A stretch of 39,833 nt of DNA. Source: Planctomycetota bacterium. GTDB lineage: Bacteria; Planctomycetota; Planctomycetia; Planctomycetales; Planctomycetaceae. The notes under the pieces are model-generated. The model did not search any database. It saw only the letters and a list, made by a program, of their open reading frames with translations, and was not told where the DNA came from. The stretch covers positions 1 through 39,833 of the forward strand of contig JAURQH010000036.1 of NCBI GenBank assembly GCA_030836185.1, read 5' to 3'. This document shows, piece after piece, positions 2,520 through 24,227 of the stretch (position 1 is its first letter; the number at the start of each line of letters is the position of its first letter). The translations under genes and the position numbers were made by a program.

Positions 2520-2721
2520 GGTGCGACTCCAGACTGAGAGAGAGGGTGCCTAAGTCGTGCTTGGGCGACAGCTACCATCAGAGTCGAAATTCAGGTGAGG
2601 ATCTCACGTAAAATCAAGAAAACCTTCAATCTCGAAGATCTTGCATGCTGAAATCTGGGACAGCATCTCGCATGCTCACGCAAGCGAGAGTATGGCACCC
2701 GGCTGAAACATGCCAGGCGAT

Positions 2722-8470: not shown

Positions 8471-8600
8471 AGTGTAGGTCGGGTTAGTCCGAGCGTAGCG
8501 AGCCGTAACTCGACAATTTGGGTAGCACCGGTAGCTCGTTTATTGGTGTTTCGCTGACACTCTTTTTCAACCGCGGAGTTCGCAGAGAACGCCGAGCAAA
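8471..8600 (+). repeat. Dispersed composite repeat, copy 1
   Basis: About 125 bases beginning GTAGGTCGGGTTAGTCCGAG and ending in CCGCGGAGTTCGCAGAGAACGC recur in the same orientation at 22619-22745 with scattered substitutions. A second block (about 8744-8780, CTCACGCAGCGGCGCGGCGACGCAGAG) also follows in the same order at 22854-22893, and its reverse complement occurs at 16851-16885. The first block contains the imperfect palindrome GGTCGGGTTAG/GTAACTCGAC. The region is non-coding and there is no gene between 8434 and 9066. Confidence 0.75.
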
Positions 8601-8896
8601 AATTAGGTGAATGCGTGTCGGCATGTTCGATTTTGATGTGTGACTGGGGCTCTCATCTATTTTGAAAATGGAGACCGAACTCTGATTTTACATGTCGTCT
8701 TCGTCTTTCGGAACACAAGCATAGCCCCATCAAAAAAGTTGTCTCACGCAGCGGCGCGGCGACGCAGAGAAAAAGAAGTCAGCTTCACTCATTAACACAC
8801 GTCAGATAGAATTGTTCTGATCAGTGAAGATGAGCGGCGAGAAACATTCCAGATTTCTGAATCAGGAAAGCTGGTGGGCCTCGGAACAATTTATCT

Positions 8897-9045
8897 CGGT
8901 TGGCACGTCCTGAATAGGAAGTGGATCGCGCAGCGACAAGATGCTTCATCATCCGGGTGGAATCGAGTGAGACACATGGCACTAAACGATCATGACGAGT
9001 CATCTTGTGACTTCGTCACCCAGCCAAACTGGCTGGGTCACCCCG
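8897..9045 (-). repeat. Transposase-less RAYT-type repeat (both ends), reverse orientation
   Basis: Read on the minus strand, this segment carries the half-site CCAGCCAGTTTGGCTGGGTG followed by the tract GTCACAAGATGACTCGTCATG, a spacer, then CGATG..GCATCTTGTCGCTGCGCG and a degraded CCGCCCTATTCAGG-type palindrome. The same order of half-sites occurs at 15792-15953, and the same half-sites bracket the RAYT gene at 14835-15544. It begins 22 bases after the cytochrome stop codon on that gene's 3' side. Confidence 0.75.
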
Positions 9046-9066
9046 CGCTCTTTCGTCATAACAAGC

Positions 9067-9570
9067 TCACTCGCCGCTGACGAGTATGCCCTGTGTGTAT
9101 TTATGACACTCGATACATGACATGGTCGCCTTGATCCAGGTCAAGGCCGCTGGATCAATCGTTGATTTCTTGGCGTCTTTCTGAAGTTGCTGTGCGATGC
9201 GACGGAAGTCATCGCTCAATTGACGATAGATCGCGTCATTCGAGACACGCCACTCTTCCGCCTGGCTCATCTCTTCCATCTGTTTCGCCCCTTTGGCGAT
9301 CATTCCGAAGTTTTCAGTGACAAGTCCCTCCAACACCAGATTGGATGCCGAGAGCTTCTTCCGCATGAACTTGGACAGAGGTGTGACAGATTTCAGACGT
9401 TCTTCGAGCGATTTTTCTTCCTCAGCCACGGGTTTCTCTTTTGGTGTGATCTGCAACTTCGGATTCGGGGAGATCTCGGGCAGCGGACGATCTTGCGCAA
9501 CAAGACTCCATTTCCAGCCAACACATAACAGCAAACCCATCAACCCACAGCCAATAAGAACGCGAGACAT
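9067..9570 (-). CDS. Secreted c-type cytochrome with C-terminal CxxCH (cytochrome c'-like)
   Basis: From ATG at 9570, preceded by GGGAGG about nine bases upstream, the protein has 167 residues. A signal peptide (residues 1-25, core VLIGCGLMGLLLCVGW) is followed by a Pro/Lys/Glu-rich linker, a helical body, and one haem-attachment motif CIECH at 152-156 near the C-terminus. A four-helix body with the haem motif in the last helix is the arrangement of the cytochrome c'/c556 fold. The protein is probably periplasmic and binds one covalent haem; its redox partner is unknown. An upstream in-frame start at 9717 would bury the signal peptide and is rejected. It follows the ABC1-kinase gene on the same strand across a 150-base gap. 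Confidence 0.85.
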   Translation of the reverse strand: MSRVLIGCGLMGLLLCVGWKWSLVAQDRPLPEISPNPKLQITPKEKPVAEEEKSLEERLKSVTPLSKFMRKKLSASNLVLEGLVTENFGMIAKGAKQMEEMSQAEEWRVSNDAIYRQLSDDFRRIAQQLQKDAKKSTIDPAALTWIKATMSCIECHKYTQGILVSGE

Positions 9571-9720
9571 AATGTGTTTCCTCCCACAGACGGTACGAAC
9601 AAAGTTTCCAGAGACGACCTCTCTCTTCATCATAACAACTGAAGGAGAGTCTGCGGATAAATTTTTTTCATCCCGCGGCAACGACATGCTCAGTATTTGA
9701 GGACAAGCCTCTTTCAACCG

Positions 9721-11373
9721 TCACCCCAAATCGCCCGATTTGCGGATCGCGCGGAACAATCGCCACGACAAATACATCGAATACGCACACCCCAGAAAGC
9801 CGGGAACCGAGACGCCCCACAATCGTGGCGGCACTTCCATACTCAAGATCTGAGCCGAGCCGACATAGAGAGCGGCGGTCAGAATTCCCCAGGTCATGCG
9901 GTTGATGATTTTATCGAGGCGGCGGTGGTCGAGATGGACTTCAAACTTGCCCCGCTTGACCGATTGCAATAACTCGCGAGTATCGCGCGGCAGGATCTCG
10001 AATAGCTGTGTCCACTCGCGATAGGCGCGTTTGGTATGACGCCATAATCGGATCGGCGACATGCGGCGTTTGAGAATTTCGGTCCGGTACGGGGCAATCA
10101 GGCCGAGCAAAGAAAAGTCCGGCTGCAACAATCGTCCGGTTCCTTCCAGCATCACCATCACTTTGATGAGGAGTGATACTCTCGGCGGTAACAGAATGTA
10201 ATGGAGGCGAATGATCCGCATCAGATCTTCGAGCGCTCCGCTGAGATTAAAATCGTCTAACTCCAGACCGACGTATTCCTCGACAAAGTCTGTGACATCG
10301 CGGAGCAATCGATCTCGGTCAAGCGATGACGGCACCTGTCCCAGTTCGACCACGGTGCTCGTCAGCCATTCCCCATCTTTTTCGACAATCGCCATCAGAA
10401 TGTCTTCGACTTTGTCGCGCAGTTGCTCGTCAATGCGACCCACCATGCCGCAATCGAGGATCCCCACGATTCCATCAGGTAAAACCATCAGATTTCCGGG
10501 ATGCGGGTCGGCGTGAAAGAAACCGTCGCGAAAGACCATGTCGAGATAGACGTTGGCACCGTTGCGGGCGAAGCCGGGCAGGTCGTGATCCCCATCCAGT
10601 GATTTCAAATCGTCGATGCTGGTCCCTTTGAATCGTTCCATCGTCAGCACACGATCCGAACAGAATTCCCGATACGGCGTCGGGAAACGGACCTCTTCCT
10701 GGTTTTCGAAATTTGCTCGAAATCGCGTGAGGTTTCGATACTCTTGACCGTAATCGAGTTCAGCCAACAAGATTTTTCGAAAGTCGGCCACCGTTTCTAT
10801 CGGTCGATAATGGCGTAACAGTGACGAATGCTTCTCGGCAAGCTGCGCGAGAATGTCGAGGATCTCCAGGTCGCTGTTGATCCGTTGTTCGATCTGCTCG
10901 TGGCGAACCTTCACGACCACTTCAGTGCCATCTTTCAGAAAGGCCCGATGAACTTGCCCAATGGACGCCGACCCGAGCGGCTCGTGATCGAAGTCTCCAA
11001 AGATCTCTTCCGGCGTGCCGCCTAACTCTTCGGTGATAATTGCAGTAACGATCTCGTAATCATCAGCGGGAGCATGCGAGAGGAGTTTCGTCAGTTCTTC
11101 GCAGAATTCCGGTCCGACGATATCTTGACGGGTGGAGAGAATTTGTCCGAGTTTGATAAATGTTGTGCCGAGTTCGGTCAGTGCCAGTCGCACGCGGACC
11201 GGGTACGACATATCCGAGATGCGTTCTCCATTGGCCGTTGAGAGATACGACTTCAACCAATCACCGGGCACCGAATTCAGCCAGTCCGCCAGACCGTATT
11301 TCATCAGAGTGCTGACGATCTCGCGAAATCGCCCGACGTTACGAATCATCGGCACCAAACCAGGGACGCTCAT
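9721..11373 (-). CDS. ABC1/AarF/UbiB family atypical protein kinase
   Basis: The 550-residue protein has the hallmarks of the ABC1 (UbiB/ADCK) family: the KxGQ segment KLGQILSTR at 74-82, the Ala-rich loop motif ASIGQVHRA at 136-144, the VVVKV lysine at 155, HADPHPGNL at 287-295 and DCGMVG near 307-312 in place of the usual DFG. Two hydrophobic C-terminal segments (about 497-545) suggest membrane anchoring. Family members support ubiquinone or other prenyl-lipid metabolism through ATPase activity, but the substrate here is unknown and no ubiquinone gene is adjacent. The start codon overlaps the stop of the small upstream gene as ATGA, so the two are translationally coupled. Confidence 0.92.
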   Translation of the reverse strand: MSVPGLVPMIRNVGRFREIVSTLMKYGLADWLNSVPGDWLKSYLSTANGERISDMSYPVRVRLALTELGTTFIKLGQILSTRQDIVGPEFCEELTKLLSHAPADDYEIVTAIITEELGGTPEEIFGDFDHEPLGSASIGQVHRAFLKDGTEVVVKVRHEQIEQRINSDLEILDILAQLAEKHSSLLRHYRPIETVADFRKILLAELDYGQEYRNLTRFRANFENQEEVRFPTPYREFCSDRVLTMERFKGTSIDDLKSLDGDHDLPGFARNGANVYLDMVFRDGFFHADPHPGNLMVLPDGIVGILDCGMVGRIDEQLRDKVEDILMAIVEKDGEWLTSTVVELGQVPSSLDRDRLLRDVTDFVEEYVGLELDDFNLSGALEDLMRIIRLHYILLPPRVSLLIKVMVMLEGTGRLLQPDFSLLGLIAPYRTEILKRRMSPIRLWRHTKRAYREWTQLFEILPRDTRELLQSVKRGKFEVHLDHRRLDKIINRMTWGILTAALYVGSAQILSMEVPPRLWGVSVPGFLGCAYSMYLSWRLFRAIRKSGDLG

Positions 11374-11630
11374 AAAGATTTCCGAATCTTGTGAAACCCA
11401 TTCAGCATCTCTTCGCCGGCGAGCTTGAGAGCTTTGTAAACTCCTTCAGCCGTTTCGACGGCGGCGTCTTTCGTCGGTTCGTATTGCTTGTTCAGTTCGT
11501 TGATGCGATCCGAAAGTCGTTCGTATTCTTCTTTCGTCTCCATTCCGGCCAAGTGCATTTTGACCCGCAATTCGTCCCGCTGCTGTTTCAGGACAGTAAT
11601 CAGTTCTGCAAGATTTTCTTGGGTGGACAT
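11370..11630 (-). CDS. Small coiled-coil protein coupled to the ABC1 kinase
   Basis: From ATG at 11630, preceded by AGGGAG at about six bases, the frame encodes 86 residues that are charged and almost entirely helical, with heptad-like leucines (ENLAELITVLKQQRDEL) and the EYERLSDRINELNKQY segment. There is no signal peptide or membrane segment. The stop overlaps the kinase start by four bases (ATGA), so it is probably the first gene of a two-gene operon and a partner of the kinase. Small phasin-like helical proteins sit beside ABC1 kinases in other bacteria, but I cannot assign a family from the sequence. Confidence 0.8.
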   Translation of the reverse strand: MSTQENLAELITVLKQQRDELRVKMHLAGMETKEEYERLSDRINELNKQYEPTKDAAVETAEGVYKALKLAGEEMLNGFHKIRKSL

Positions 11631-11772
11631 ATTCGGCTCCCTGTTGCTGAAAATGATTGATGACCGTTCTGTTAGCTTGGAATACTTCCCCCAGTTTATC
11701 AAGCCGAATCCGAAATTCAGTTTGTCGTTCCAAGTTCTTGATTCGCAACAAGATGGGCCTTATTATCGGCTT

Positions 11773-11805
11773 CACAGCCCGCGGGCGCAAGCACGCGGGA
11801 TCTCG
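11773..11805. repeat. REP-like palindrome CCCGCGGGCGCAAGCACGCGGG
   Basis: A single hairpin with stem CCCGCG/CGCGGG and a loop containing GCGCAAGCA lies upstream of the kinase operon. Related GCAAGCACGCAGGGGA sequence occurs at 14037-14054, and a similar loop is found in the pair at 35590-35666. Confidence 0.5.
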
Positions 11806-11893
11806 TAACATGTAGAACCCGTAGCAGGCTCCCGCCTGCCAAATCAATCATCATCAATACGACACGTGTGGCATGCTGGCTTGACCAGTAGCA

Positions 11894-11955
11894 TGTAGGC
11901 TGGGACTAGTCCCAGCGAAAACACCAATCCAATGCTGGGTCACGACCCAGCCTAC
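11894..11955 (+). repeat. Facing palindrome pair, GTAGGCTGGG family, copy 1
   Basis: The unit reads GTAGGCTGGGACTAGTCCCAGC, a 25-base spacer, then GCTGGGTCACGACCCAGCCTAC, so each half is itself a palindrome and the outer GTAGGCTGGG/CCCAGCCTAC ends face each other. The inverse-orientation copy is at 34295-34369 with a different, longer spacer, and a single half lies at 17465-17486. It is placed just upstream of acsA. Confidence 0.8.
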
Positions 11956-12021
11956 AAAAACTTAACCTTTCGTACCTTTCCAACTTTTCGAACCTTTCAC
12001 ACTTTCCCACGAGACACTCCC

Positions 12022-13974
<1,953 letters not shown>

Positions 13975-14077
13975 GGGGATTGTGAGATTGGGAGTTGAGG
14001 CGATGGGGGGGGGTAAACAGCATTCGGTCCGCATGCGCAAGCACGCAGGGGACGATGGGTAGGTTACGGAGTCACAT

Positions 14078-14716
14078 ATGAAGTTCCGCGAGGCAATTCG
14101 TTTATTGTTGATCTCTCACCCGGAAGGATTAACTCCGCAAGAGATTCGTGACCTGATTAAAGCCAACTATCCAAACTTGTATGGAACCGAATCTCATCGG
14201 CGAAATGTGGACAAAGGGCACTACAACGATCTCGACCATGCTTTGCTCGCTCAGATCTATGTTGTGAAAAATAACGCGAATGATATTTATGCGGATAGAT
14301 CACAAGTCCCTATGAAATTAAGTCTGCTCGGAGCAGAGATACCTAATTCAGACGACTCAGAGCACATCGAAGATACGATTTCAACCGAGAGTCTGGAAAA
14401 GCTTGAAAGTGGCCTGGGGACGCTCTACATTCTTGGTACTCATCTCTACACACAAGATGGCAAAGAAATTGTTAAAATTGGAATTACGTCCGGGTCAGTT
14501 GAGGGACGGATCAATCAGCTCTACAACACAAGCGTTCCTTATCGCTTCCGAGTAATTCAAGAAATTGAAACAACTAATTACGCAGAGCTTGAACAAGCGA
14601 TGCACAAAATCTTTGACCCATTTCAAATCAATCGCTCTCGTGAGTTCTTTACCGAAGATTGCCTTCAGTTTGTCGAGACGCTATTGAATCTTCACCAACA
14701 GATATTGAATGCGTGA
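14078..14716 (+). CDS. GIY-YIG (T5orf172/MUG113-type) domain protein with N-terminal winged-helix-like region
   Basis: The 212-residue protein has two parts. Residues 1-75 (FREAIRLLLISHPEGLTPQE onward) resemble a small winged-helix or HARE-HTH-like domain. Residues 115-195 match the T5orf172/MUG113 branch of the GIY-YIG nuclease superfamily: LYILG for the first strand, VKIGITSG followed by R144 for the second strand and helix, then an E..MHKIF helix and the SREFFT end. These domains are predicted nucleases or DNA-binding modules in phage and mobile-element contexts. No restriction or modification gene is next to it, and its codon use is AT-richer than acsA, which suggests acquisition. A strong terminator follows 49 bases after the stop. 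The domain call is from pattern recognition; the biochemical role is unknown. Confidence 0.75.
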   Translation: MKFREAIRLLLISHPEGLTPQEIRDLIKANYPNLYGTESHRRNVDKGHYNDLDHALLAQIYVVKNNANDIYADRSQVPMKLSLLGAEIPNSDDSEHIEDTISTESLEKLESGLGTLYILGTHLYTQDGKEIVKIGITSGSVEGRINQLYNTSVPYRFRVIQEIETTNYAELEQAMHKIFDPFQINRSREFFTEDCLQFVETLLNLHQQILNA

Positions 14717-14765
14717 CTTTCATCGATCTTACGCCTACAAGCGCCAACAGACTGAACATTTTACG

Positions 14766-14792
14766 AACCGGAACGAAAGTTCCGGTTTTTTT
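14766..14792 (+). terminator. Rho-independent terminator after the GIY-YIG gene
   Basis: Perfect nine-base stem AACCGGAAC/GTTCCGGTT with a GAAA tetraloop, followed directly by a run of seven T. It separates the GIY-YIG gene from the RAYT element. Confidence 0.92.
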
Positions 14793-14834
14793 GTTGGGGA
14801 GGTGATTTGAAGAGAATAGAATGACGACTCAATG

Positions 14835-15544
14835 GGGTGACCCGACCAGTCTGATTAAGACTGGTCCTTCAGCAACAGGATGACTCATCATGCGGTTACG
14901 ATGTCGGTGAGAAGTGCCCTATGGTCAACCGAAGAGTGCACGACAACGAAAAGCACGTCCACTTCGTCACTTTCTCTTGTTTCAAGCGTCGAGAACTGCT
15001 TCAGCATGATCAATCCAAAAGGATTGTCATTGGACAACTCGGAAGTCGTCTGAAACAACATCAAGGAATCTGCACGGGATTTGTGATCATGCCGAACCAT
15101 GTGCATGCCTTGATCTGGTTTACTGAAACGAAACAACTCAGTCCGTTCATGAATAAGTGGAAAGATCAAAGCTCGCATCAAATCAAAAAGTTATATCGTG
15201 AGAAGTTTCCCAACTATTGGAGCCAACTCGATAATCATGAGCATATTTGGCAACCGAGATATTACGGTTTCAATATCTGGTCCCGACAGAAACTGGAAGA
15301 GAAACTCAATTACATCCATTTGAATCCGGTTCGAGCCGGTCTGGTGGATAGAGCCGTTGATTGGAAGTGGAGTTCGGCAAGATGGTACGAAGACGGAAAG
15401 GAAGTTGGATTGCCCATCGAGTGGCCTCCCGGCATGGAGACGGAAGATGAATTTGCCGTGGAATTGTAATGTTGAAACCGGACGATGAAACATCTTGTCA
15501 CTGCGCGACCCGCCCTATTCAGGACGGGCAACCCGAGTTGACAG
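14835..15544 (+). mobile_element. RAYT element: REP-type half-site, tyrosine transposase, second half-site
   Basis: The left end has the palindrome CCAGTCTGATTAAGACTGG followed by AGGATGACTCATCATG. The right end has GACGATGAAACATCTTGTCA followed by the palindrome CCCGCCCTATTCAGGACGGG. The same two ends, in the same order but separated by only a short spacer, form the repeats at 15792-15953 and (inverted) 8897-9045; a left end alone is at 23404-23485. The arrangement of a RAYT gene bracketed by its REP/BIME sequences is known from other bacteria. That these are the transposition ends is inferred. Confidence 0.8.
14921..15469 (+). CDS. REP-associated tyrosine transposase (Y1/IS200-like, RAYT)
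   Basis: The 182-residue protein belongs to the Y1_Tnp superfamily of single-strand HUH transposases. It has the N-terminal strand block VHFVTFSCFKRREL (13-26), the metal-binding histidine pair in VIMPNHVHALIWF (His60 and His62), and the RAYT signature YIHLNPVRAGLV (131-142) followed by WKWSSARWY. Tyr131 is the likely nucleophile by analogy with other RAYTs. RAYTs cut and join REP sequences as single-stranded DNA and are usually single-copy domesticated genes. This one lies between matching half-sites, and its 3' half-site is only ten bases beyond the stop. Start ATG at 14921 is preceded by a GAGAAG. It looks intact. Confidence 0.92.
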   Translation: MVNRRVHDNEKHVHFVTFSCFKRRELLQHDQSKRIVIGQLGSRLKQHQGICTGFVIMPNHVHALIWFTETKQLSPFMNKWKDQSSHQIKKLYREKFPNYWSQLDNHEHIWQPRYYGFNIWSRQKLEEKLNYIHLNPVRAGLVDRAVDWKWSSARWYEDGKEVGLPIEWPPGMETEDEFAVEL

Positions 15545-15791
15545 TTTGGCAGACATCCTGAAATCATCTCCCTCAACATGAAAACAACACCCGCATGAAT
15601 GCCGACGGAAATCAATATCTCGTCACCGGGGAAGACGGCATCTCGCGCTGCTGGTGGGTCGGCGATCAGGAGGATTATCGAGAGTATCACGACACGGAAT
15701 GGGGACGGCCCGTCGATGATGACTTTCGCCTGTTCGAGAAAATCTGTCTGGAAGGATTTCAGTCGGGGCTTTCGTGGTTGACGATCCTCCG
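15482..15791 (+). repeat. ~310-bp direct repeat, copy 1 (half-site plus 5' end of tag)
   Basis: This stretch, from GACGATGAAACATCTTGTC to GACGATCCTCCGCA, recurs at 15893-16202. The tag coding part differs at seven positions beyond the first few codons, five of them synonymous, and the last ~60 bases are identical. The half-site parts are more diverged. The copies are separated by about 100 bases containing the other half-site. Confidence 0.9.
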
Positions 15792-15837
15792 CAGGGTGGC
15801 CCAGCCAGTTTGGCTGGGTGACCAAGTCACAAGATGA
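15595..15837 (+). pseudogene. Truncated duplicate of tag (N-terminal third only)
   Basis: The frame begins MNADGNQYLV and runs through RCWWVGD, YHDTEWGRPV and ICLEGFQSGLSWLTIL, nearly identical to the first ~65 residues of the intact tag at 16004. Homology stops at about 15791, inside the codons for LTILR, where the repeat half-site begins, and the frame then reads through repeat sequence to a stop at 15837. The catalytic C-terminal part and the C-terminal zinc ligands are absent, so no glycosylase activity is expected. Confidence 0.88.
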
Positions 15838-15953
15838 CTCATCATGATCGTTCAATAAAATGAGCCATGTGCCTCACCCGATTCCACCCGGACGATGAAA
15901 CATCTTGTCGCTTCGCGACCCGCCCTATTCAGGGCGGGCCACCCGAGGTGACA
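15792..15953 (+). repeat. Transposase-less RAYT-type repeat (both ends) between the tag copies
   Basis: The left half has CCCAGCCAGTTTGGCTGGGTG and then AAGTCACAAGATGACTCATC. After a ~40-base spacer the right half has GACGATGAAACATCTTGTCG and the near-perfect palindrome CCCGCCCTATTCAGGGCGGG. The order equals the ends of the element at 14835-15544, with the transposase gene replaced by the spacer. The right half doubles as the start of the second copy of the 310-bp direct repeat. Confidence 0.85.
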
Positions 15954-16202
15954 GTTCGGCGGACATCCTGAAATCATCCCAGAAACATGAAAACAACCCC
16001 CGCATGAACGACGCCATAAATCAATATCTCGTCACCGGGGAAGACGGCATCCCGCGTTGCTGGTGGGTCGGCGATCATGAGGATTATCGAGAGTATCACG
16101 ACACGGAATGGGGACGGCCCGTTGATGACGACTTTCGTCTGTTTGAGAAAATCTGTCTGGAAGGATTTCAGTCGGGGCTTTCGTGGTTGACGATCCTCCG
16201 CA
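15893..16202 (+). repeat. ~310-bp direct repeat, copy 2
   Basis: Second copy of the unit at 15482-15791; here it continues into the complete tag gene, so this is the copy in its original context. Confidence 0.9.
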
Positions 16203-16648
16203 AACGGGACAACTTTCGGTCAGCGTTCGCGGACTTCAACTTCAACAAGGTGGCCACTTTCAAGGCCGCCGATGTCAAACGGTTGTTACAGGATGCGGGA
16301 ATTGTGCGTCATCGGGGCAAGATTGAGGCCACCATCAATAATGCGCAGCGGGCGATTGAAGTGGTCGACCAGTTCGGCAGCCTGGGAGCTTATCTCTGGC
16401 AATACTCACCGGCGTCTCCCGAGCCACACATTGGGAAAGGCGATCATGCACATCCAATTCCCGCCGTGACCGAGACGTCGAAGTCACTCAGTCAGGACTT
16501 GAAGCAGCGAGGCTGGAAGTTTTTCGGCCCCACGACCGCCTATGCCTTCATGCAGGCAATGGGACTCGTCAACGACCACATGCCGGGCTGCGGAGTCAGA
16601 GACGAAACCGAACGCCAACGGTCGAAGTTTCGTCGTCCAAGTCGGTGA
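16004..16648 (+). CDS. tag: DNA-3-methyladenine glycosylase I
   Basis: Tag removes 3-methyladenine from alkylated DNA as the first step of base excision repair. The 214-residue protein from ATG at 16004 has the N-terminal zinc ligands Cys in PRCWWVG and His in EYHDTEWG, the substrate-pocket segment ICLEGFQSGLSWLTIL, the helix-hairpin-helix-like DAGIVRHRGKIEA, and the C-terminal FMQAMGLVNDHMPGC, which supplies the remaining His and Cys. This is close to the E. coli protein, with short extra tails. A longer in-frame start at 15905 lies within the repeat half-site and is unlikely. The promoter region is repeat DNA, so expression may depend on the mobile sequence upstream. Confidence 0.95.
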   Translation: MNDAINQYLVTGEDGIPRCWWVGDHEDYREYHDTEWGRPVDDDFRLFEKICLEGFQSGLSWLTILRKRDNFRSAFADFNFNKVATFKAADVKRLLQDAGIVRHRGKIEATINNAQRAIEVVDQFGSLGAYLWQYSPASPEPHIGKGDHAHPIPAVTETSKSLSQDLKQRGWKFFGPTTAYAFMQAMGLVNDHMPGCGVRDETERQRSKFRRPSR

Positions 16649-16710
16649 TGCCGAGTGCCATGCCCTCGCTGGCGTGGGTATGTGAGTGACGAGACGGTCC
16701 TCTCAGTCGA

Positions 16711-16792
16711 GTAGGTTGGGTTAGCACAGCGTAACCCAACATCGAACTTATTGTTGGGTTACGACTCGTTTCACTCGGCTAACCCAACCTAC
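16711..16792. repeat. Facing palindrome pair, GTAGGTTGGGTTAG family
   Basis: GTAGGTTGGGTTAG..AGCGTAACCCAAC is followed, after about ten bases, by GTTGGGTTACG..GGCTAACCCAACCTAC, so the outer and inner ends are mutually inverted. It belongs to a widespread type of bacterial intergenic repeat. It sits 62 bases downstream of tag. Confidence 0.8.
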
Positions 16793-16850
16793 AGTTTTCA
16801 AGTTCCTCGAAAGCCATGCTTTCAGTGCCACCCGATTTGTTTTCTTTCTT

Positions 16851-16885
16851 CTTTTCCTCTGCGTCTCTGCGCCTCCGCGTGAGTG
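16851..16885 (-). repeat. Dispersed CGCAGAG-rich repeat, reverse orientation
   Basis: Read on the minus strand, CTCACGCGGAGGCGCAGAGACG matches the second block of the composite repeats near 8744-8780 and 22854-22893. Confidence 0.6.
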
Positions 16886-17008
16886 TTTTTTCACACTGGC
16901 GGACAAGCCGACCAGTGCCACCTATTATCATCTGGGTCCGTGGTTCTTTCTTGCTGATCCGGCTCAAGCTCTTTAGTTTCGGCTGATGGACGCTCCACGG
17001 GAACACGA

Positions 17009-17419
17009 TTGCCCGACGATCAGATTGAGGGAAGCGTTTGGAGTTATAAAATCGAAGCCGAAAAAGGTGGCAAGCCGGTCGAGGGGTCTTTCCGCGTCGA
17101 TGGTGACGCGATTTACGCGGTGGATCGTACGATTAAAGTGAAGCCACCCTCACCCCGAAAGATACGGAATATCATCAAAGGCAAAGAGGCAGAGATTACA
17201 CTTCCGGGGGGTGACACTTCGGCCAAGCGAATTGGTGATATTGTCAAAAAGGGGAGCAAATACCGGATCGACTTTATTGAAGAGAAGCCCTTCACCGGCA
17301 TGATGCATATTGGTCAAAAGGAAAAAGGGAGTACTGTCTGGGTTGGGTACTTCCGCGAAAAGAGTGGCAGCAAATATGGTAAGAGACAGGACGTGGAATT
17401 GCGACTCAAAGAGGATTGA
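17009..17419 (+). CDS. Unknown soluble protein, possibly lacking its 5' end
   Basis: A 136-residue frame opens with TTG at 17009 and encodes a charged beta-rich protein (EGSVWSYKIEAEKGGKPVEG, later TVWVGYFREKSGSK). There is no signal peptide, membrane segment or recognisable motif. No ribosome site precedes the TTG. The frame is open a little further upstream (SSSLVSADGRSTGTRLPDD) without any start codon before a stop, which looks like the remainder of a longer, perhaps secreted, protein whose beginning was lost next to the repeats at 16711-16885. It may be a pseudogene. Confidence 0.45.
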   Translation: MPDDQIEGSVWSYKIEAEKGGKPVEGSFRVDGDAIYAVDRTIKVKPPSPRKIRNIIKGKEAEITLPGGDTSAKRIGDIVKKGSKYRIDFIEEKPFTGMMHIGQKEKGSTVWVGYFREKSGSKYGKRQDVELRLKED

Positions 17420-17464
17420 ACGGAAGCTCCGCAGGCCTTACCGGGCCAAGCTCCCAAAACAAAA

Positions 17465-17486
17465 GCTGGGACTCGTCCCAGACTAC
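17465..17486 (+). repeat. Single half of the GTAGGCTGGG palindrome family
   Basis: GCTGGGACTCGTCCCAGACTAC is one palindromic half of the pairs at 11894-11955 and 34295-34369. It lies between the stop codons of two converging genes. Confidence 0.55.
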
Positions 17487-17523
17487 GCCTTTCGTGTCAT
17501 TCTGCAGGGTATGCTCAAGCGGC

Positions 17524-18870
17524 TCACATCAACGGTTCGATGAGCTTTCGTGTCTCGTTGACCAGTTCTTGAGCGACCGATTCTTCCGGGGCTTCGGCGA
17601 TGATGCGGACAATCGGTTCGGTATTACTCGCTCGGACTTGAACCCAACGGTCGGACCAGTCAAGGCGTAAGCCGTCCCCTTCGGTCGGAGTGGCGTCCGA
17701 GAATGTCTCTTTCATAGCCGTGATTGCTTGTGGCACGATCTCTTGGGGACAGGTGACTTTGTCTTTCAAAATGTGATAGACGGGCAAAGTCTCGACCCAC
17801 TCGGAGAGTTTGCCGCCGCGTTCGGCGAGTCCTTCCAGAATCAAAGCCATGCCGACAAAGCTGTCTCGCACATACCCGATCTTTGGGTCAATGATGCCAC
17901 CGTTCCCTTCGCCGCCGATGATCGCATTGACCTCACGCATCATGTTGACGACGTTGGCCTCACCAACAGCCGACCGATGAAACGCACAGCCGTGTTTCTC
18001 GGCGATGTCTTGATTGACGCGACTGGTGGAGCCGTTGACGACAATCGGTCCGGGTGTTTTGGCGAGAACATTATCGAGAACCAATGCGAGGGTGAGTTCT
18101 TCACCGATGTAACGGCCTTTCTCGTCGATGACAGCCAGGCGGTCGGCATCGGGATCTTGTGCGAAGCCGATGTCGGCATCGCTGTCAGCGATGAGCTGGC
18201 TGAACTCTTGCAAGTTTTCTTTGGTCGGTTCGGGCGTGTGAGCGAAGTGTCCATCGGGAATCGCACCGACGGTTGTCGTGTCACAACCGAGTTCCTGTAA
18301 CATGCGCGGACCGAGTGAGGCTCCCGAACCGTGATTGCAATCGAGCATGACGCGCGGCTGGAATGATTTGATGGCATCGATGCTGATCCGGTCGAGCACT
18401 TTTTGCAGATGGGGTTCGCCGGGATTGATGAGAGTTTCGACTTCTCCCAATTCGTTCCACGGTTTCCAGGCGAATGATTCCTGTTTGAGGTTTTTGAGTA
18501 GCTGTTGACCTTCTTCGGCGTTGAAGATGCCTCCCGTGGAAGAGAACGGTTTGAGGCCGTTCCATTCGGAGGGATTATGGCTGGCGGTGATTTGAATCGC
18601 GGCGGCTGCGTCGTGTTCGCGGACGAGGACTCCACAAGTGGGAGTGGCGGCGATGCCCGCGTCGAGAACTTTGCAGCCGACAGCAGTCAGTCCTGAGAGG
18701 ACGGCACGTCTCACCATTTCACCCGAGGCACGCCCATCGCGTGTGAGAATGACGGTGCCTCCATTGGCCCAGGTGCCGACTCCTGCGGCGAAACGAGTGA
18801 GGTAATCGGGAGTGAGTCCATCGCCGATGATGCCTCGTAGTCCAGAGATACTGAGAATCCGTTGTGTCAT
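17524..18870 (-). CDS. glmM: Phosphohexomutase, probably phosphoglucosamine mutase
   Basis: The 448-residue protein is an alpha-D-phosphohexomutase. It has the phosphoserine loop TASHNPSEWNG (Ser98), the metal-binding loop DPDADR at 239-244, the sugar-binding GEGNGG, and the C-terminal phosphate-binding RASNTEP. The length fits GlmM (glucosamine-6-P to glucosamine-1-P, on the way to UDP-GlcNAc); phosphomannomutase or phosphoglucomutase activity cannot be excluded because these subfamilies differ at few positions. An N-terminal ISGLRGIIG matches the usual GTDGIRG position with local divergence. It is transcribed alone and diverges from nrdJ. Confidence 0.82.
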   Translation of the reverse strand: MTQRILSISGLRGIIGDGLTPDYLTRFAAGVGTWANGGTVILTRDGRASGEMVRRAVLSGLTAVGCKVLDAGIAATPTCGVLVREHDAAAAIQITASHNPSEWNGLKPFSSTGGIFNAEEGQQLLKNLKQESFAWKPWNELGEVETLINPGEPHLQKVLDRISIDAIKSFQPRVMLDCNHGSGASLGPRMLQELGCDTTTVGAIPDGHFAHTPEPTKENLQEFSQLIADSDADIGFAQDPDADRLAVIDEKGRYIGEELTLALVLDNVLAKTPGPIVVNGSTSRVNQDIAEKHGCAFHRSAVGEANVVNMMREVNAIIGGEGNGGIIDPKIGYVRDSFVGMALILEGLAERGGKLSEWVETLPVYHILKDKVTCPQEIVPQAITAMKETFSDATPTEGDGLRLDWSDRWVQVRASNTEPIVRIIAEAPEESVAQELVNETRKLIEPLM

Positions 18871-19057
18871 CGAAAGTCACCTGTTCCGTGGCTGAATCAA
18901 ATCTGTCGTGTTGTGGTTTTCGTCGAGTCTATTTGATGTCTCGACAGATTATCGGAGATCGGGATGAATGTAGAGTGGGAGAGGCGAGGAAAGGCTTGTT
19001 TGACCGGAATAATCGTTAAAATCAGCGAAAACCGGAATATTAGAGGGTTTCCTTATA

Positions 19058-19073
19058 ACACAACATATTGTGG
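19058..19073. promoter_or_regulatory. NrdR-box-like palindrome
   Basis: ACACAACATATTGTGG has perfect CACAA/TTGTG arms and fits the NrdR box consensus acaCwAyATaTwGtgt. NrdR represses ribonucleotide reductase genes when dATP is high. It lies about 400 bases before nrdJ and 188 bases before glmM. Confidence 0.65.
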
Positions 19074-19236
19074 TTTTAAGAATCTACATTTTTTGGCGAG
19101 TTTCACCCTCGGGTCGTTCTTGATGAGTCTTTCTTGAAAAATTCTTCATGCTCGAAGATCCCGAGAAAAGACGCTTGGATCTTCTCTCAAAGAGATTCGA
19201 CTACTCAAAATCTTCATCAAAATTGGAAGTGAAGTA

Positions 19237-19264
19237 TTGACATACTGAGCGAGAAATTTATAGT
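19237..19264 (+). promoter_or_regulatory. Sigma-70-type promoter of nrdJ
   Basis: A consensus TTGACA at 19237-19242 and TATAGT at 19259-19264 are separated by 16 bases. This predicts a start near 19271 and a leader of about 185 bases before the nrdJ start codon. Confidence 0.65.
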
Positions 19265-19278
19265 GGGTTCTCTCAACT

Positions 19279-19319
19279 CGCACTATATGTGGGGCCGATA
19301 ACAGGAGTAAACCCCCACA
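19279..19319 (+). promoter_or_regulatory. NrdR-like half-matched box and leader stem-loop of nrdJ
   Basis: CACTATATGTGG at 19281-19292 resembles the core of an NrdR box and would overlap the first bases of the transcript. It runs into a stem-loop whose seven-base arms TGTGGGG (19288-19294) and CCCCACA (19313-19319) enclose an 18-base loop. Either could be an operator or RNA control site. Confidence 0.45.
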
Positions 19320-19359
19320 GGTTGTGGAGCGCTCTTAAAAGGGGAATTTTCAGAAAAAA

Positions 19360-19375
19360 CTATACGATTGTATAG
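19360..19375. promoter_or_regulatory. Perfect palindrome in the nrdJ leader
   Basis: CTATACGATTGTATAG has six-base arms around GATT. It lies about 80 bases before the start codon. It is too AT-rich and lacks a T-run to be a terminator, so it is more likely a protein site. No regulator can be named. Confidence 0.4.
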
Positions 19376-19457
19376 AAGTACTTCCCCGGCGTCCGATAAT
19401 TGATCGCAGAACAGCCACCATTTCCGTCGTTAATTTTTCACAAGAGGAGTGTGCACG

Positions 19458-22349
19458 ATGCACGAGACAGAACGTCTCTCGAGCGAACAGCTCTCGCAAG
19501 AAGCGAATGGATACGAAACGAACAAACCACAAGCCATGAAAGTCGCACCGTACTTTTGCCCACCAAGTGTTGATCCGTTTACAACGGTCGACTGGGAACC
19601 CCGTACGGCACATATTAAGGACGAAAATGGCGGCATCCTGTTTGAACAGGAAGATTGTCTGGTTCCGACTCAATGGTCGGCACTCGCCACCAATGTGGTG
19701 GTCAGCAAATATTTCTTTGGAGAACCGGGGACTCCCGAGCGGGAAACCAGCATTCGCCAGGTGATTCACCGCGTTGCTCGGACTATCGCCGACTGGGGAA
19801 CCCAGGATGGATACTTCGCCTCTGAAAAAGATGGCGAGAACTTCTATCGCGAACTGGCTTGGTTGTGCGTCCATCAGCATGGATCGTTCAACTCACCGGT
19901 TTGGTTCAATGTCGGTATGTATCATCAGTATGGTGTGAAGGGATGTCGGGGTAACTACAACTTCGATCCTGAAACTCGCGCCATTCATCGTCCAGACTCA
20001 CCTTACGAGTTCCCACAAGCGTCTGCCTGCTTCATTCAGTCGGTCGAAGACAACATGGAAGACATCATGCGTCTCGCGACCAGCGAAGCGATGCTCTTCA
20101 AATTCGGTTCGGGAACCGGAACAGACCTGTCAACGATTCGTTCCAGCAAAGAGAAACTTTCGGGTGGCGGTTCGCCTTCCGGTCCTCTTTCGTTCATGCG
20201 GGTGTACGATCAAATTGCAGCCGTCGTTAAATCGGGTGGGAAAACCCGTCGTGCCGCCAAGATGCAGTCTCTCAAAGACTGGCACCCCGACGTGCTGGAA
20301 TTCATTAAGTGTAAAGCCAATGAAGAGAAGAAAGCTCGCTGCCTGATTGATAGCGGCGAGTACGATTCCAACTTCAACGGCGAAGCGTATTCTTCCATCA
20401 TGTTCCAAAACGCGAATCTTTCGGTTCGTATCAGTGATGAGTTTATGTCGGCTGTTCTCGAAGGCAAGCCGTGGCAAACCAAGTTTGTCACCGATACCGT
20501 TGAGGGAGCACCAGAATACGATGCTCAAGAACTGATGGGCGAAATCGCTTACGGAACCTGGTACTGCGGCGATCCCGGAGTGCAGTATGAAACCACAATC
20601 AACAAGTGGCATACCTGCAAAAACACCGGACCGATCAACGCGTCTAACCCGTGTTCAGAATATATGTTCCTCGATGACACGGCTTGTAACCTGTCTAGTT
20701 TGAACCTCAAGAAGTATCAGGAAGCCGATGGATCGTTCAATGTTGAACGCTTCTGCCGGGCTGCTTCGATCTTCATCACGGCTCAAGAGATTCTGGTCGA
20801 TCATGCCAGCTATCCGACACCGGCGATTGCGGAAAACAGTTCACTGTTCCGTCCGTTGGGTCTCGGTTACGCCAACTTGGGCAGCATGCTGATGTCAATG
20901 GGAATTCCTTATCACAGCGAAGCGGGCAACGGTATCTGTGGTGCTTTGACGGCATTGCTGACCGGTCAGGCTTATCTGACTTCCAGCCGCATCGCCGGTC
21001 ACCTCGGAGCCTTCAGTGGCTTCGACGAAAACCGCGAGCCAATGCTCGAAGTGATGGAAATGCATCGCGACGCCACCAAAGACATCAACACCGAATGCCC
21101 GGCGTACTTGCGTCAAGCGTCTCGTGAGTTGTGGGACAAAGTGGTTGAGAGCGGCAAGAAAAACGGTTACCGCAATGCACAGGCCACTGTGTTAGCTCCG
21201 ACCGGAACCATCGCCTTCATGATGGATTGCGACACTACCGGCATCGAGCCGGACATCGCACTCGTCAAATACAAGCAACTCGCCGGCGGCGGAATGATGA
21301 AGATCATCAACCGCACCGTGCCGAAAGCTCTGGACACTCTCGGTTACTCCCCGGAAGAGATCACCGACATCTTGGCGTATATCGAAGAGAACGACACGAT
21401 TGAAGGATCGCCCAAGTTCAAAGACGAGCATCTGCCCGTCTTCGACTGTGCCTTTACTCCGGCGAACGGAACCCGTTCGATTCACTGGAAAGCACACGTC
21501 AACATGATGGCGGCTGCTCAGCCGTTCCTCTCGGGAGCGATCTCCAAGACGGTTAACATGCCGTCCGATTCGACCGTCGAAGATATTCAGGAAGCCTATG
21601 TCGAAGGTTGGCGACTCGGTCTGAAAGCTCTCGCGATTTATCGCGATGGCTCGAAACAGTCACAACCGCTGGCGACCAAAAAAGAAGGCGATCGCAAGAA
21701 AGCCGCTGCCGGAGAAGCCGGACCACTTCGCCGCCGCCTGCCGGAAACCCGTCAGTCGATCACTCACAAGTTCAATGTGGGTGGACACGAAGGATACGTC
21801 ACGGTGGGAACATTCGAAGACGGCATGCCGGGCGAATTGTTCATCACGATGGCCAAAGAAGGATCAACCATCGGTGGTTTGATGGATGTGATCGGAACGG
21901 AAACGTCGATGGCGTTGCAATACGGCGTGCCGATGCAAGCCTTGGTCGACAAGTTCAGCCACATGCGGTTTGAGCCGTCCGGTTGGACCGGTAACCCCGA
22001 CATTCCTCATGCCAAGAGTATTGTCGATTACATCTTCCGCTGGATGGGAATCCAATTCCTGCCCGGTTACCGCGAAGAGAACACTCCCAGTCGTGACGGT
22101 GATCAAGCCGCCACCACAACCGAGGAAAGCTCTCCGCAAGTCGTGAAGGAAGAGATCGAAAAGATCGTGGCTGCTCACGCGGCTGAAGCTGCCGAAGATG
22201 GGGACGGTGATTCCCCGGCATTACGATCACAGCAATTTGCTCGCTTCCAGTCAGACGCTCCGGCGTGTGACGGTTGCGGTTCGATCACTGTCCGTAACGG
22301 CAACTGTTACTTATGTCACAACTGCGGTGCCAGCATGGGCTGCAGCTAA
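19458..22349 (+). CDS. nrdJ: Vitamin B12-dependent (class II) ribonucleoside-diphosphate reductase
   Basis: NrdJ reduces ribonucleotides to deoxyribonucleotides using adenosylcobalamin, so it works with or without oxygen. ATG at 19458 is chosen over GTG at 19449 because AGAGGAG (19443-19449) ends eight bases before it; the product is 963 residues. The catalytic loop NPCSEY is at about 397-402, followed by the partner region LDDTACNLSSLNL, and the finger-loop cysteines are in the expected places. After the barrel (PTGTIAFMMD near 580) comes a linker and a C-terminal Cys-rich tail with CDGCG and CYLCHNCG that can bind zinc and pass electrons from thioredoxin. It is a single-gene unit with its own promoter and terminator. 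Confidence 0.96.
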   Translation: MHETERLSSEQLSQEANGYETNKPQAMKVAPYFCPPSVDPFTTVDWEPRTAHIKDENGGILFEQEDCLVPTQWSALATNVVVSKYFFGEPGTPERETSIRQVIHRVARTIADWGTQDGYFASEKDGENFYRELAWLCVHQHGSFNSPVWFNVGMYHQYGVKGCRGNYNFDPETRAIHRPDSPYEFPQASACFIQSVEDNMEDIMRLATSEAMLFKFGSGTGTDLSTIRSSKEKLSGGGSPSGPLSFMRVYDQIAAVVKSGGKTRRAAKMQSLKDWHPDVLEFIKCKANEEKKARCLIDSGEYDSNFNGEAYSSIMFQNANLSVRISDEFMSAVLEGKPWQTKFVTDTVEGAPEYDAQELMGEIAYGTWYCGDPGVQYETTINKWHTCKNTGPINASNPCSEYMFLDDTACNLSSLNLKKYQEADGSFNVERFCRAASIFITAQEILVDHASYPTPAIAENSSLFRPLGLGYANLGSMLMSMGIPYHSEAGNGICGALTALLTGQAYLTSSRIAGHLGAFSGFDENREPMLEVMEMHRDATKDINTECPAYLRQASRELWDKVVESGKKNGYRNAQATVLAPTGTIAFMMDCDTTGIEPDIALVKYKQLAGGGMMKIINRTVPKALDTLGYSPEEITDILAYIEENDTIEGSPKFKDEHLPVFDCAFTPANGTRSIHWKAHVNMMAAAQPFLSGAISKTVNMPSDSTVEDIQEAYVEGWRLGLKALAIYRDGSKQSQPLATKKEGDRKKAAAGEAGPLRRRLPETRQSITHKFNVGGHEGYVTVGTFEDGMPGELFITMAKEGSTIGGLMDVIGTETSMALQYGVPMQALVDKFSHMRFEPSGWTGNPDIPHAKSIVDYIFRWMGIQFLPGYREENTPSRDGDQAATTTEESSPQVVKEEIEKIVAAHAAEAAEDGDGDSPALRSQQFARFQSDAPACDGCGSITVRNGNCYLCHNCGASMGCS

Positions 22350-22507
22350 CCGTTCGCACGGCTGGGGCCGCGGGGATCATCGATCATCGATCAACAATCG
22401 AACGAATGATGCCCGCGAGCCAGAAGTCGTGAGAATAAATTGAAGAAACTTCCGCTGATACTCCTTCTTCATGGATGAGCTCGGCGGCAAGGACGCCACC
22501 AACAACG

Positions 22508-22541
22508 ACCCGGATGCGAGCAATCGCCTCCGGGTTTTTTT
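22508..22541 (+). terminator. Rho-independent terminator downstream of nrdJ
   Basis: ACCCGG and CCGGGT form the stem (with inner GCGA/TCGC), followed by seven T. It lies about 160 bases beyond the nrdJ stop, implying a long 3' untranslated region that contains no recognisable gene. Confidence 0.85.
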
Positions 22542-22618
22542 ATGGGGGGGGGAAGTTAGGAAGTAGAAATTAGCAACTGGGAATTTGCGATGAGAAACTT
22601 GAAAAGAGAATCATAGCA

Positions 22619-22893
22619 GTGTAGGTCGGGTTAGTCCGAGCGGAGCGAGCCGTAACCCGACAATTTGGGTAGCACTGATCGGTCGGCTATTGGAGTGTCG
22701 CTGGCAATCTTTTTCAACCGCGGAGTTCGCACAGAACGCGGAGAACTAACAAGATGGGTGGCTGGGGACGAACGCAGTGAGCCCCCAGAGTGTAAGAGAG
22801 AGTTTTGATCGTCGGATGCCACTGCTGACTTGACCGGCAGTGAAAGAATTATTCTCACGCAGAGACGCGGTGGCGCAGAGAACAAAAAGAACT
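22619..22893 (+). repeat. Dispersed composite repeat, copy 2
   Basis: The first block (22619-22745) matches 8471-8600 from GTAGGTCGGGTTAGTCCGAG to CCGCGGAGTTCGCACAGAACGC. The second block (22854-22893, CTCACGCAGAGACGCGGTGGCG) matches 8744-8780. The sequence between the blocks differs in length and content. The rest of 22350-23114 is non-coding; apart from this repeat and the terminator I see nothing in it. Confidence 0.75.
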
Positions 22894-23114
22894 CAGGCGA
22901 ATCTGGGTCGCACCGATCGCTCGTCTATCGGGTAGCTGGATTCGCAAGAATTCAGACGAAATGCGAGAGCTGGGTTGGTCATTCTGAACTCTTGCGAGTC
23001 CAGCTACGGACGGCGTCAATGCGGAGGGAAAGCTCCACCAAGTCGGAGCACTCTAAAGGAGCGATTGTTGAGCGATGAGCTCAGGTTTTCTGTCCCCCTC
23101 ACTAAGGCAATAAT

Positions 23115-23369
23115 TTACTTGACCCACCGTAGGTGGTATAGCATGATTTCTTGATTTTTGACCGTTCCCTCGATGCGAGCCAGGGGCCGATAAGCAGCTT
23201 CCATCCACTTGTAGTCACAATAGCGGTAGTAGAAGTTGATAGAACTGATTGGTGGCTGATACTTTGTAGTTAGCGCGAAGTAACTGCCGACGTAGATGGC
23301 CAGAAGAGAGATAGAGATCGCCACTGTTTTTATGAGAAAAGAAGGACTTTTCTCACCCGGATCGCTCAT
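23115..23369 (-). CDS. Small membrane protein of unknown function (84 aa)
   Basis: From ATG at 23369 the protein has a short polar N-terminus, one transmembrane segment (about residues 13-33, LIKTVAISISLLAIYVGSYF) and a ~50-residue Tyr/Arg-rich tail (NFYYRYCDYKWMEAAYRPL) that is probably extracytoplasmic. No family is recognised. The ribosome site is weak (AAAAGAA). The composition and the clear membrane segment favour a real gene. It lies between repeats and is not obviously part of an operon. Confidence 0.6.
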   Translation of the reverse strand: MSDPGEKSPSFLIKTVAISISLLAIYVGSYFALTTKYQPPISSINFYYRYCDYKWMEAAYRPLARIEGTVKNQEIMLYHLRWVK

Positions 23370-23403
23370 TTCTTTTTAGCTTTCTTGGCCATCTCGCTCA
23401 CAG

Positions 23404-23485
23404 GATGCCCCGACCAGATTTAATTGGTTGGGTGACAAAGTCACAAGATGACTCATCATGATCGAACAATGAAGTAAGCGATGTC
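23404..23485 (+). repeat. RAYT-type repeat, left half plus spacer
   Basis: The sequence CCGACCAG..TGGTTGGGTGAC with AAGTCACAAGATGACTCATC matches the left half-site at 15794-15850, and the following ~25 bases resemble the spacer there. The right half is missing. It lies about 60 bases beyond the stop of the UPF0173 gene. Confidence 0.75.
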
Positions 23486-23546
23486 AGACATCCGGTCAAT
23501 TCCTGTCAGAGAATATGATTCTTGGTTCGACTTGAGAATTTTGAAT

Positions 23547-24227
23547 TTAAACATCCAAAGATTCGTTTGCGGCAAGGATCACCGGTTCGGCAGATGTCTC
23601 GGCTTTCACGCTTTCTACCCACGCATTAACGTCCTGTTCAATCGGAGGCCAAGTGTTGTAGTGCATGGGGATCACGGTTTTGGGCGAGAGAAAATTGATC
23701 GCTTTGATCGAATCCGCAGGCCCCATTGTGAAATTATCACCGATGGGAAGGATGGCCACATCGATCCCTTCGTCTTCGATCAGTTTCATATCGTAGAAAA
23801 GCCCAGTGTCGCCAGCGTGATAGATTCTCTTGCCATCAATCGTGAAGAGTAACCCTGCCGGGTTACCACCATACGAACCATCTGGTAAGGCAGAGCCGTG
23901 ATGAGCAATGGTCAATTTCAGATGACCGAAGGGATGGGCGAAGCCTCCGCCCAGATGTTGCGGATGAGAGTTCTCGACGCCTTGGGCGGTCAACCAGTTC
24001 ACGATCTCAAAGTTTGAGATCACCGTGGCACCGGTTCGCTTGGCGATGGAGACCGTATCGCCCACATGATCTTCATGGCCATGCGTGACAATGATAAAAT
24101 CAGGATTCACATCTTCCGCAGAGACGGTTGCTTGCGGGTTGCCTGTCAAGAAGGGATCGATCAACAAGGTGTGATCGCCGGTCTCGATCTGAAAACAGGA
24201 ATGTCCCAAGGCAGTGATCGTGGACAT
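23547..24227 (-). CDS. UPF0173 family metal-dependent hydrolase
   Basis: The 226-residue protein is a metallo-beta-lactamase-fold hydrolase of the UPF0173/YtkL type, predicted cytoplasmic, with unknown physiological substrate. It begins MSTITALGHSCFQI, has IDPFLTGNP near 23-31, the metal-binding HGHEDH at 49-54, the conserved AHHGSALPDG segment, YHAGDTG, and a C-terminal MHYNTWPPI. The length is typical. GGAG lies ten bases before ATG at 24227; an in-frame start at 24251 adds a non-conserved octapeptide. It follows pgi by about 30 bases on the same strand, so the two are likely one operon. Confidence 0.92.
   Translation of the reverse strand: MSTITALGHSCFQIETGDHTLLIDPFLTGNPQATVSAEDVNPDFIIVTHGHEDHVGDTVSIAKRTGATVISNFEIVNWLTAQGVENSHPQHLGGGFAHPFGHLKLTIAHHGSALPDGSYGGNPAGLLFTIDGKRIYHAGDTGLFYDMKLIEDEGIDVAILPIGDNFTMGPADSIKAINFLSPKTVIPMHYNTWPPIEQDVNAWVESVKAETSAEPVILAANESLDV

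Follow-up and report, generated by a model that had tools for sequence, protein, structure and literature searches.

The locus analysed here raises the question of whether a RAYT gene and the inverted repeats on either side of it form a transposon that travels as one unit, or whether a resident gene is accompanied by mobile repeats. The window, i.e., the whole 39,833-nt stretch of DNA analysed, is contig C12 of a 5.16-Mb planctomycete genome in 107 contigs. The original prediction, made from its sequence, favoured an autonomous element with MITE-like derivatives, in which a short spacer takes the place of the gene. Coordinates are collected in Table 1.

Table 1. Features of the RAYT locus and of related repeats in the window.
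Feature	Position	Strand	Basis
RAYT (TnpA_REP) gene, 182 aa	14921..15469	+	Pfam Y1_Tnp, NCBIfam NF047646, PDB 4er8, motif positions
Left half-site of RAYT unit, tag GGGTGA, 8-bp hairpin	14834..14892	+	model R1, 40.8 bits
Right half-site of RAYT unit	15481..15535	-	model R1, 63.3 bits
Left half-site, gene-less pair	15793..15846	+	model R1, 70.8 bits
Spacer of gene-less pair, 44 nt	15847..15890	.	pair scan; similar spacers in alignment A1
Right half-site, gene-less pair	15891..15945	-	model R1, 70.9 bits
Right-type half-site, second gene-less pair	8897..8953	+	model R1, 49.1 bits
Left-type half-site, second gene-less pair	8991..9044	-	model R1, 68.1 bits
Single left-type half-site, no partner recognised	23402..23460	+	model R1, 63.9 bits
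Duplication copy 1: right half-site and start of the tag gene	15478..15793	.	repeat families D1, D2; alignment
Duplication copy 2: right half-site and start of the full tag gene	15888..16202	.	repeat families D1, D2; alignment

The RAYT open reading frame has a Pfam Y1_Tnp match (E 4.4e-11), and its product passes the NCBIfam model NF047646 (REP-associated tyrosine transposase) with 109.9 bits against a cut-off of 80. A PDB match was obtained to E. coli TnpA_REP, 4er8 (E 3.5e-6). The catalytic motifs are intact: HVH occupies residues 60-62 and Y131 lies within YIHLNP. Y---NP is described in PMC6006769 as the class 2 RAYT signature; class 3 TnpA_Y1 was set aside for the window RAYT, as the Y----Q of that class is unlike its Y---NP motif. 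The locus shares with IS200/IS605 elements, as PMC6006769 describes them, the Y1 HUH transposase family and subterminal hairpins, but the IS200 model gives the protein 28.9 bits, under its cut-off of 55, and the ends here are inverted copies of one module. The RAYT protein has 13 matches in its own genome at E ≤ 0.001, some of them being two pieces of one locus, and matches six named loci, the best five of which come from planctomycete MAGs. In the same genome, RAYTs that are more distant, at least four of them (C23 twice, C45, C82), are bracketed, judged by eye, by other palindromes. As a separate observation, 16840-16960 contains CACTGGCGGACAAGCCGACCAGTGCCACC, much like the palindromes beside a more distant RAYT at C23.

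As predicted, RAYT lies between two half-sites of opposite strand, and the same half-sites recur without the gene around the 44-nt spacer listed in Table 1 and, in the inverted second pair, around one of 37 nt. The left and right ends had been taken for two different sites, which did not hold: both are inverted copies of one ~55-nt module, read inwards. The module opens with a tag that most often reads GGGTGG or GGGTAG; two hairpins follow, of ~8 bp and of 4 bp, and then a CAAGA box. Judged from its sequence, each half-site is a long REP, in which the first hairpin bears a GT[AG]G tag and the second, covarying one is followed by the CAAGA box. The RAYT unit deviates from GT[AG]G in both tags, the right one being GGGTTG, while other copies have GTGG or GTAG; the second hairpin of its left half-site is damaged, being 6 nt shorter than the sister-species counterpart in the locus alignment.

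Half-sites were gathered via anchors and then by profile; a regular expression had yielded few true ones. Extraction gave 43 of them, and 41, from this genome and its relatives, are the rows of alignment A2, with the copies at C27 (L027) and C24 (L014) left out. Pairing holds in 94.5% of cells for hairpin 1 and in 97.0% for hairpin 2, and 9 of their 12 pairs show both-sided changes; the third small hairpin is weaker (76.8% paired). Over the 16 tested pairs of the whole structure, 101 cells carry both-sided changes vs a shuffled mean of 32.2 (reached in 0 of 500 shuffles) and vs 3 to 28 in slid controls, over which the tested structure has an advantage, being derived from the 41 sequences themselves. 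Both-sided change affects 11 of the 16 pairs, a number equalled by 8 of 500 shuffles. Folded as single-stranded DNA, the 169-nt stretch around the 15793 repeat has a z-score of -4.73, none of 200 shuffles being as good, and the tags pair at its base. Four half-sites folded singly gave z -3.2, -4.2, -4.6 and -2.0, the weakest being the right half-site of RAYT; hairpin 2 is absent from the minimum-energy fold of 15793-15846 alone. An Rfam search of the window at gathering scores returned no match. In several half-sites (among L146, L147, L148, L149 and L006) an insert, GCAACTGAGGTCGCCGAGC...GAAGGCGGTAG, stands in place of the second hairpin, and a stretch related to it lies within the right half-site at L006; the insert may be another repeat of its own.

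For the 15780-15975 repeat, BLAST returned 21 matches in its own genome, a count that includes itself and the right half-site of RAYT. With the covariance model, at least 38 half-sites were found there at E ≤ 0.01 (150 of 1158 candidates scored). Sixteen of them make up eight convergent pairs, tags outward, with 37-45 nt between, vs a simulated mean of 0.018 such pairs (maximum 1 in 5000 runs), as the original prediction would lead one to expect of a genome search. Two further half-sites bracket RAYT, and a profile scan detected partners, some degraded, for six more (C24 twice, C75, C19, C23 and C76), so that at least 24 of the 38 are paired. For 14 of the 38, no partner was recognised by model, profile or pair scans, a point against the original prediction. 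In the sister species G002, the 12 stretches fetched for half-site hits contain 12 pairs, with spacers of 45 nt in eight and of 39, 46, 56 and 97 nt in the remaining four; two other G002 stretches scanned contain no pair. Two inverted REPs with a spacer are therefore repeated as a unit, in the manner of a REPIN or BIME, and RAYT lies, in the manner of a REPtron, between two inverted tagged palindromes (with deviant tags in this copy) that have many counterparts genome-wide.

A RAYT match at E ≤ 1e-20 is present in 23 of 59 related genomes, and 18 have a close RAYT, defined as E ≤ 1e-25 with at least 41% identity, a limit chosen after the RAYT and half-site counts were known; G006, with 64 matched residues, is counted among the latter. 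Half-sites are present in at least 27 of the 59, all such counts being lower bounds with 95 candidates scored per genome, of 792 to 3781. Among the candidates scored, half-sites occur in at least 17 of 18 genomes with a close RAYT vs at least 10 of 41 without one, and ten or more half-sites in at least 14 of 18 vs at least 4 of 41. After removal of the nine model-supplying genomes the figures are at least 8 of 9 vs at least 10 of 41, and at least 6 of 9 vs at least 4 of 41, respectively; the named loci L037 and L039 in the model may also come from one of the 59 genomes, which are non-independent samples. Over the 59 related genomes, these repeats accompany close RAYTs, though imperfectly. Abundance of the repeats in relatives lacking this RAYT had been named in advance as evidence against the link, and it is found in part. 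G004 (87% complete) has at least 50 half-sites and a RAYT merely 26% identical; with distant RAYTs only, G040, G007 and G003 have at least 33, 13 and 12 half-sites, and G032 and G036, with no RAYT match at E ≤ 0.001, at least five and two. G031 has a 51% identical RAYT and no half-site among the candidates scored.

Bracketing was scanned in 29 RAYT loci, our own choice among RAYT-like loci. Recognisable half-sites in + / - order stand on the two sides of 9 of them (7 among the 17 with 55% identity or more), and such bracketing occurs in several genera. Of the ten unbracketed loci at this identity, some are without the 3' region of the gene or are cut off by the end of a contig; three are flanked on both sides by half-sites that follow a different order, and a single short piece is without any.

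We read the locus, with a probability of roughly 80%, as a REPtron, in which a RAYT inherited vertically is matched with cognate REP repeats and the gene-less pairs would be BIMEs/REPINs, i.e., non-autonomous units of ~155 nt. RAYT would act as an HUH/Y1 single-strand endonuclease. Once single-stranded, the unit is predicted to close at its base through pairing of the tags, GGGTGG with CCACCC, while the half-sites form hairpins. RAYT would recognise the GT[AG]G tag and the outer hairpin, and would cut and rejoin single-stranded DNA near the unit ends, so that the unit is copied elsewhere. The window RAYT itself would not have moved, whereas local duplication or recombination would have reshaped its right flank and copied the start of the tag gene as well. 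The intact catalytic motifs, the inverted half-sites with their covarying hairpins, the near-fixed spacing and the co-occurrence with close RAYTs are direct observations; that RAYT binds, cuts and moves these repeats is what we infer.

The history of the window copy can be followed in the same-genus genome G002, where the same acetyl-CoA synthetase gene stands upstream of RAYT (flanks identical to locus L038, JAQWSQ010000008.1). The two loci have 77% nucleotide identity over 771 columns, from the left flank into the right half-site, and the G002 copy is broken by a frame break and an in-frame TAG. Since the place is orthologous, RAYT was present there before the species split, and the window copy shows no sign of recent movement. 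On the right side, G002 has an inner half-site piece, then a spacer, then a left-type half-site; the window has a right-type half-site and then ~250 nt of tag sequence duplicating the stretch that ends at 16202. The two copies are 92% identical between 15478-15568 and 15888-15978, and 94% between 15575-15793 and 15984-16202. The latter segments both correspond to the 5' portion of tag, the gene for DNA-3-methyladenine glycosylase I, and the rest of the gene follows only the second. This likeness of the right sides of the RAYT unit and the 15793 repeat, ~250 nt beyond the element, had escaped the original prediction. Window positions 15960-16650 (tag) matched none of the candidate places scored in the two same-genus genomes, 40 out of 81 in one and 40 out of 88 in the other. 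The duplication ends at CCGCA, adjoining the left tip of the next repeat; as many other left-type copies likewise have GCA on the outer side of the tag, the joint may be due to microhomology or be the work of an enzyme. In G002, a gene-less pair at C90 has a left half-site with the 6-nt shortening of the window copy, and 13 of 14 flank letters match. With its right end in a duplication and a different right end in G002, the window copy has mosaic ends, for which joint movement is unnecessary. A clean empty site was not found at the two C24 sites examined: in the sister species one is occupied by other DNA and the other lies inside a larger missing segment.

A true autonomous transposon, in which half-site, RAYT and half-site move together and gene-less pairs are internal-deletion derivatives, finds evidence in a sister lineage of RAYT within this genome. 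Besides C12, gene-bearing copies are found at C76, where a broken RAYT is bracketed by both ends, and at C27, where the first 46 codons follow a left end alone. Over 131 nt, the left ends at C76 and C27 show 98% identity, and their flanks differ; they share the insert replacing the second hairpin, and identity ceases within a few letters of GCAGGG. A RAYT-less copy at C23 is 93-95% identical to that 131-nt end, and another at C34 is 92-94% identical over the inner 90 nt with a different outer hairpin, which indicates that modules recombine. In the window, the stretch from the left half-site of RAYT to the start codon partly aligns, by eye, with gene-less spacers. The pattern at C76, C27, C23 and C34 would fit unit mobility with deletion, but module exchange could leave it too; the coding overlap of C27 and C76 is too small to show that the gene itself was copied. 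The original prediction is supported in part: the shared half-sites, the gene-less pairs of near-fixed spacing, the co-occurrence and the sister lineage speak for it, the orthologous position of the window RAYT and its mosaic ends argue against it for this copy, and we consider such a transposon unlikely here. The narrower proposal that RAYT moved as a unit with REPs in this genus, C76 and C27 being copies of one element with gene-less derivatives such as C23, is somewhat less doubtful and can be held tentatively; if true, the outer tagged hairpin alone would suffice for movement at the end with the replaced second hairpin. Surveys, as far as their accounts go, describe RAYTs as single-copy (PMC3116915, PMC8049555) and vertically inherited (PMC8049555), and as not moving their own gene.

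The repeats could also be host sequences, such as terminators or cruciform-forming recombination sites, spread by homologous recombination, with RAYT there by chance. Their strong hairpins and their position among other repeat families would agree with that, but the near-fixed spacing with tags at the outer ends, the bracketing in several genera and the co-occurrence with close RAYTs make it very improbable.

The REPtron reading places the arrangement within the published RAYT/REP/BIME (REPtron/REPIN) kind, in a planctomycete lineage; the C76/C27 case is a possible departure from it. REPtrons are described as RAYTs with flanking inverted REPs (PMC2817692; PMC6006769), and the window agrees in having RAYT between inverted GT[AG]G-tagged palindromes, further genomic copies and co-occurrence of RAYT and repeats. 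The window differs from those descriptions in its longer half-sites (~55 nt), which carry a second, covarying hairpin, and in a right half-site that lies within a duplication; in a sister lineage, moreover, RAYT relics are present at two places. The gene-less pairs resemble the REPINs/BIMEs of PMC3116915 and PMC8266576 in being non-autonomous units of two inverted REPs and a spacer with tags outward, but the spacer is nearly fixed (37-45 nt in eight pairs), whereas PMC8049555 and PMC8266576 describe spacers as variable or highly diverse. TIRtrons/TIRYTs, as presented in PMC3733652, also have long inverted repeats, some self-complementary, on both sides of a RAYT-like gene, and the families of these repeats are of moderate abundance; their TIRs reportedly lack the GT[AG]G tag present here. 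The same paper already names Planctomycetes as tagged-repeat hosts, and a title-level literature search found no title naming this repeat family. The locus offers a planctomycete RAYT whose probable substrate is legible from the genome, and a two-hairpin REP with covariation across a family; it suggests which repeats go with which enzyme. It also invites the question of how a transposase that was mobile turned into a fixed gene, for which the sister RAYT lineage could be a half-way case.

Several features of the neighbourhood were observed as well. In G002, the gene ending near 8433 directly precedes the gene at 23549; here ~15 kb (8548-23548) lie between them, with repeat clusters at both borders, and rearrangement at repeats is possible. 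The 216-aa ORF at 9067-9717 has no Pfam or NCBIfam match, and is missing in G002, where the neighbouring kinase and the repeat are only ~113 nt apart. A MUG113/T5orf172-domain gene (14078-14716) stands between the acetyl-CoA synthetase gene and RAYT, and is absent there in G002. Three copies of a 42-43 nt palindromic repeat (8474-8516, 16751-16792 and 22621-22663), reading GTAGGT(C/T)GGGTTAG on the other strand, represent another GTAG-tagged REP-like family, which has many copies in the loci examined.
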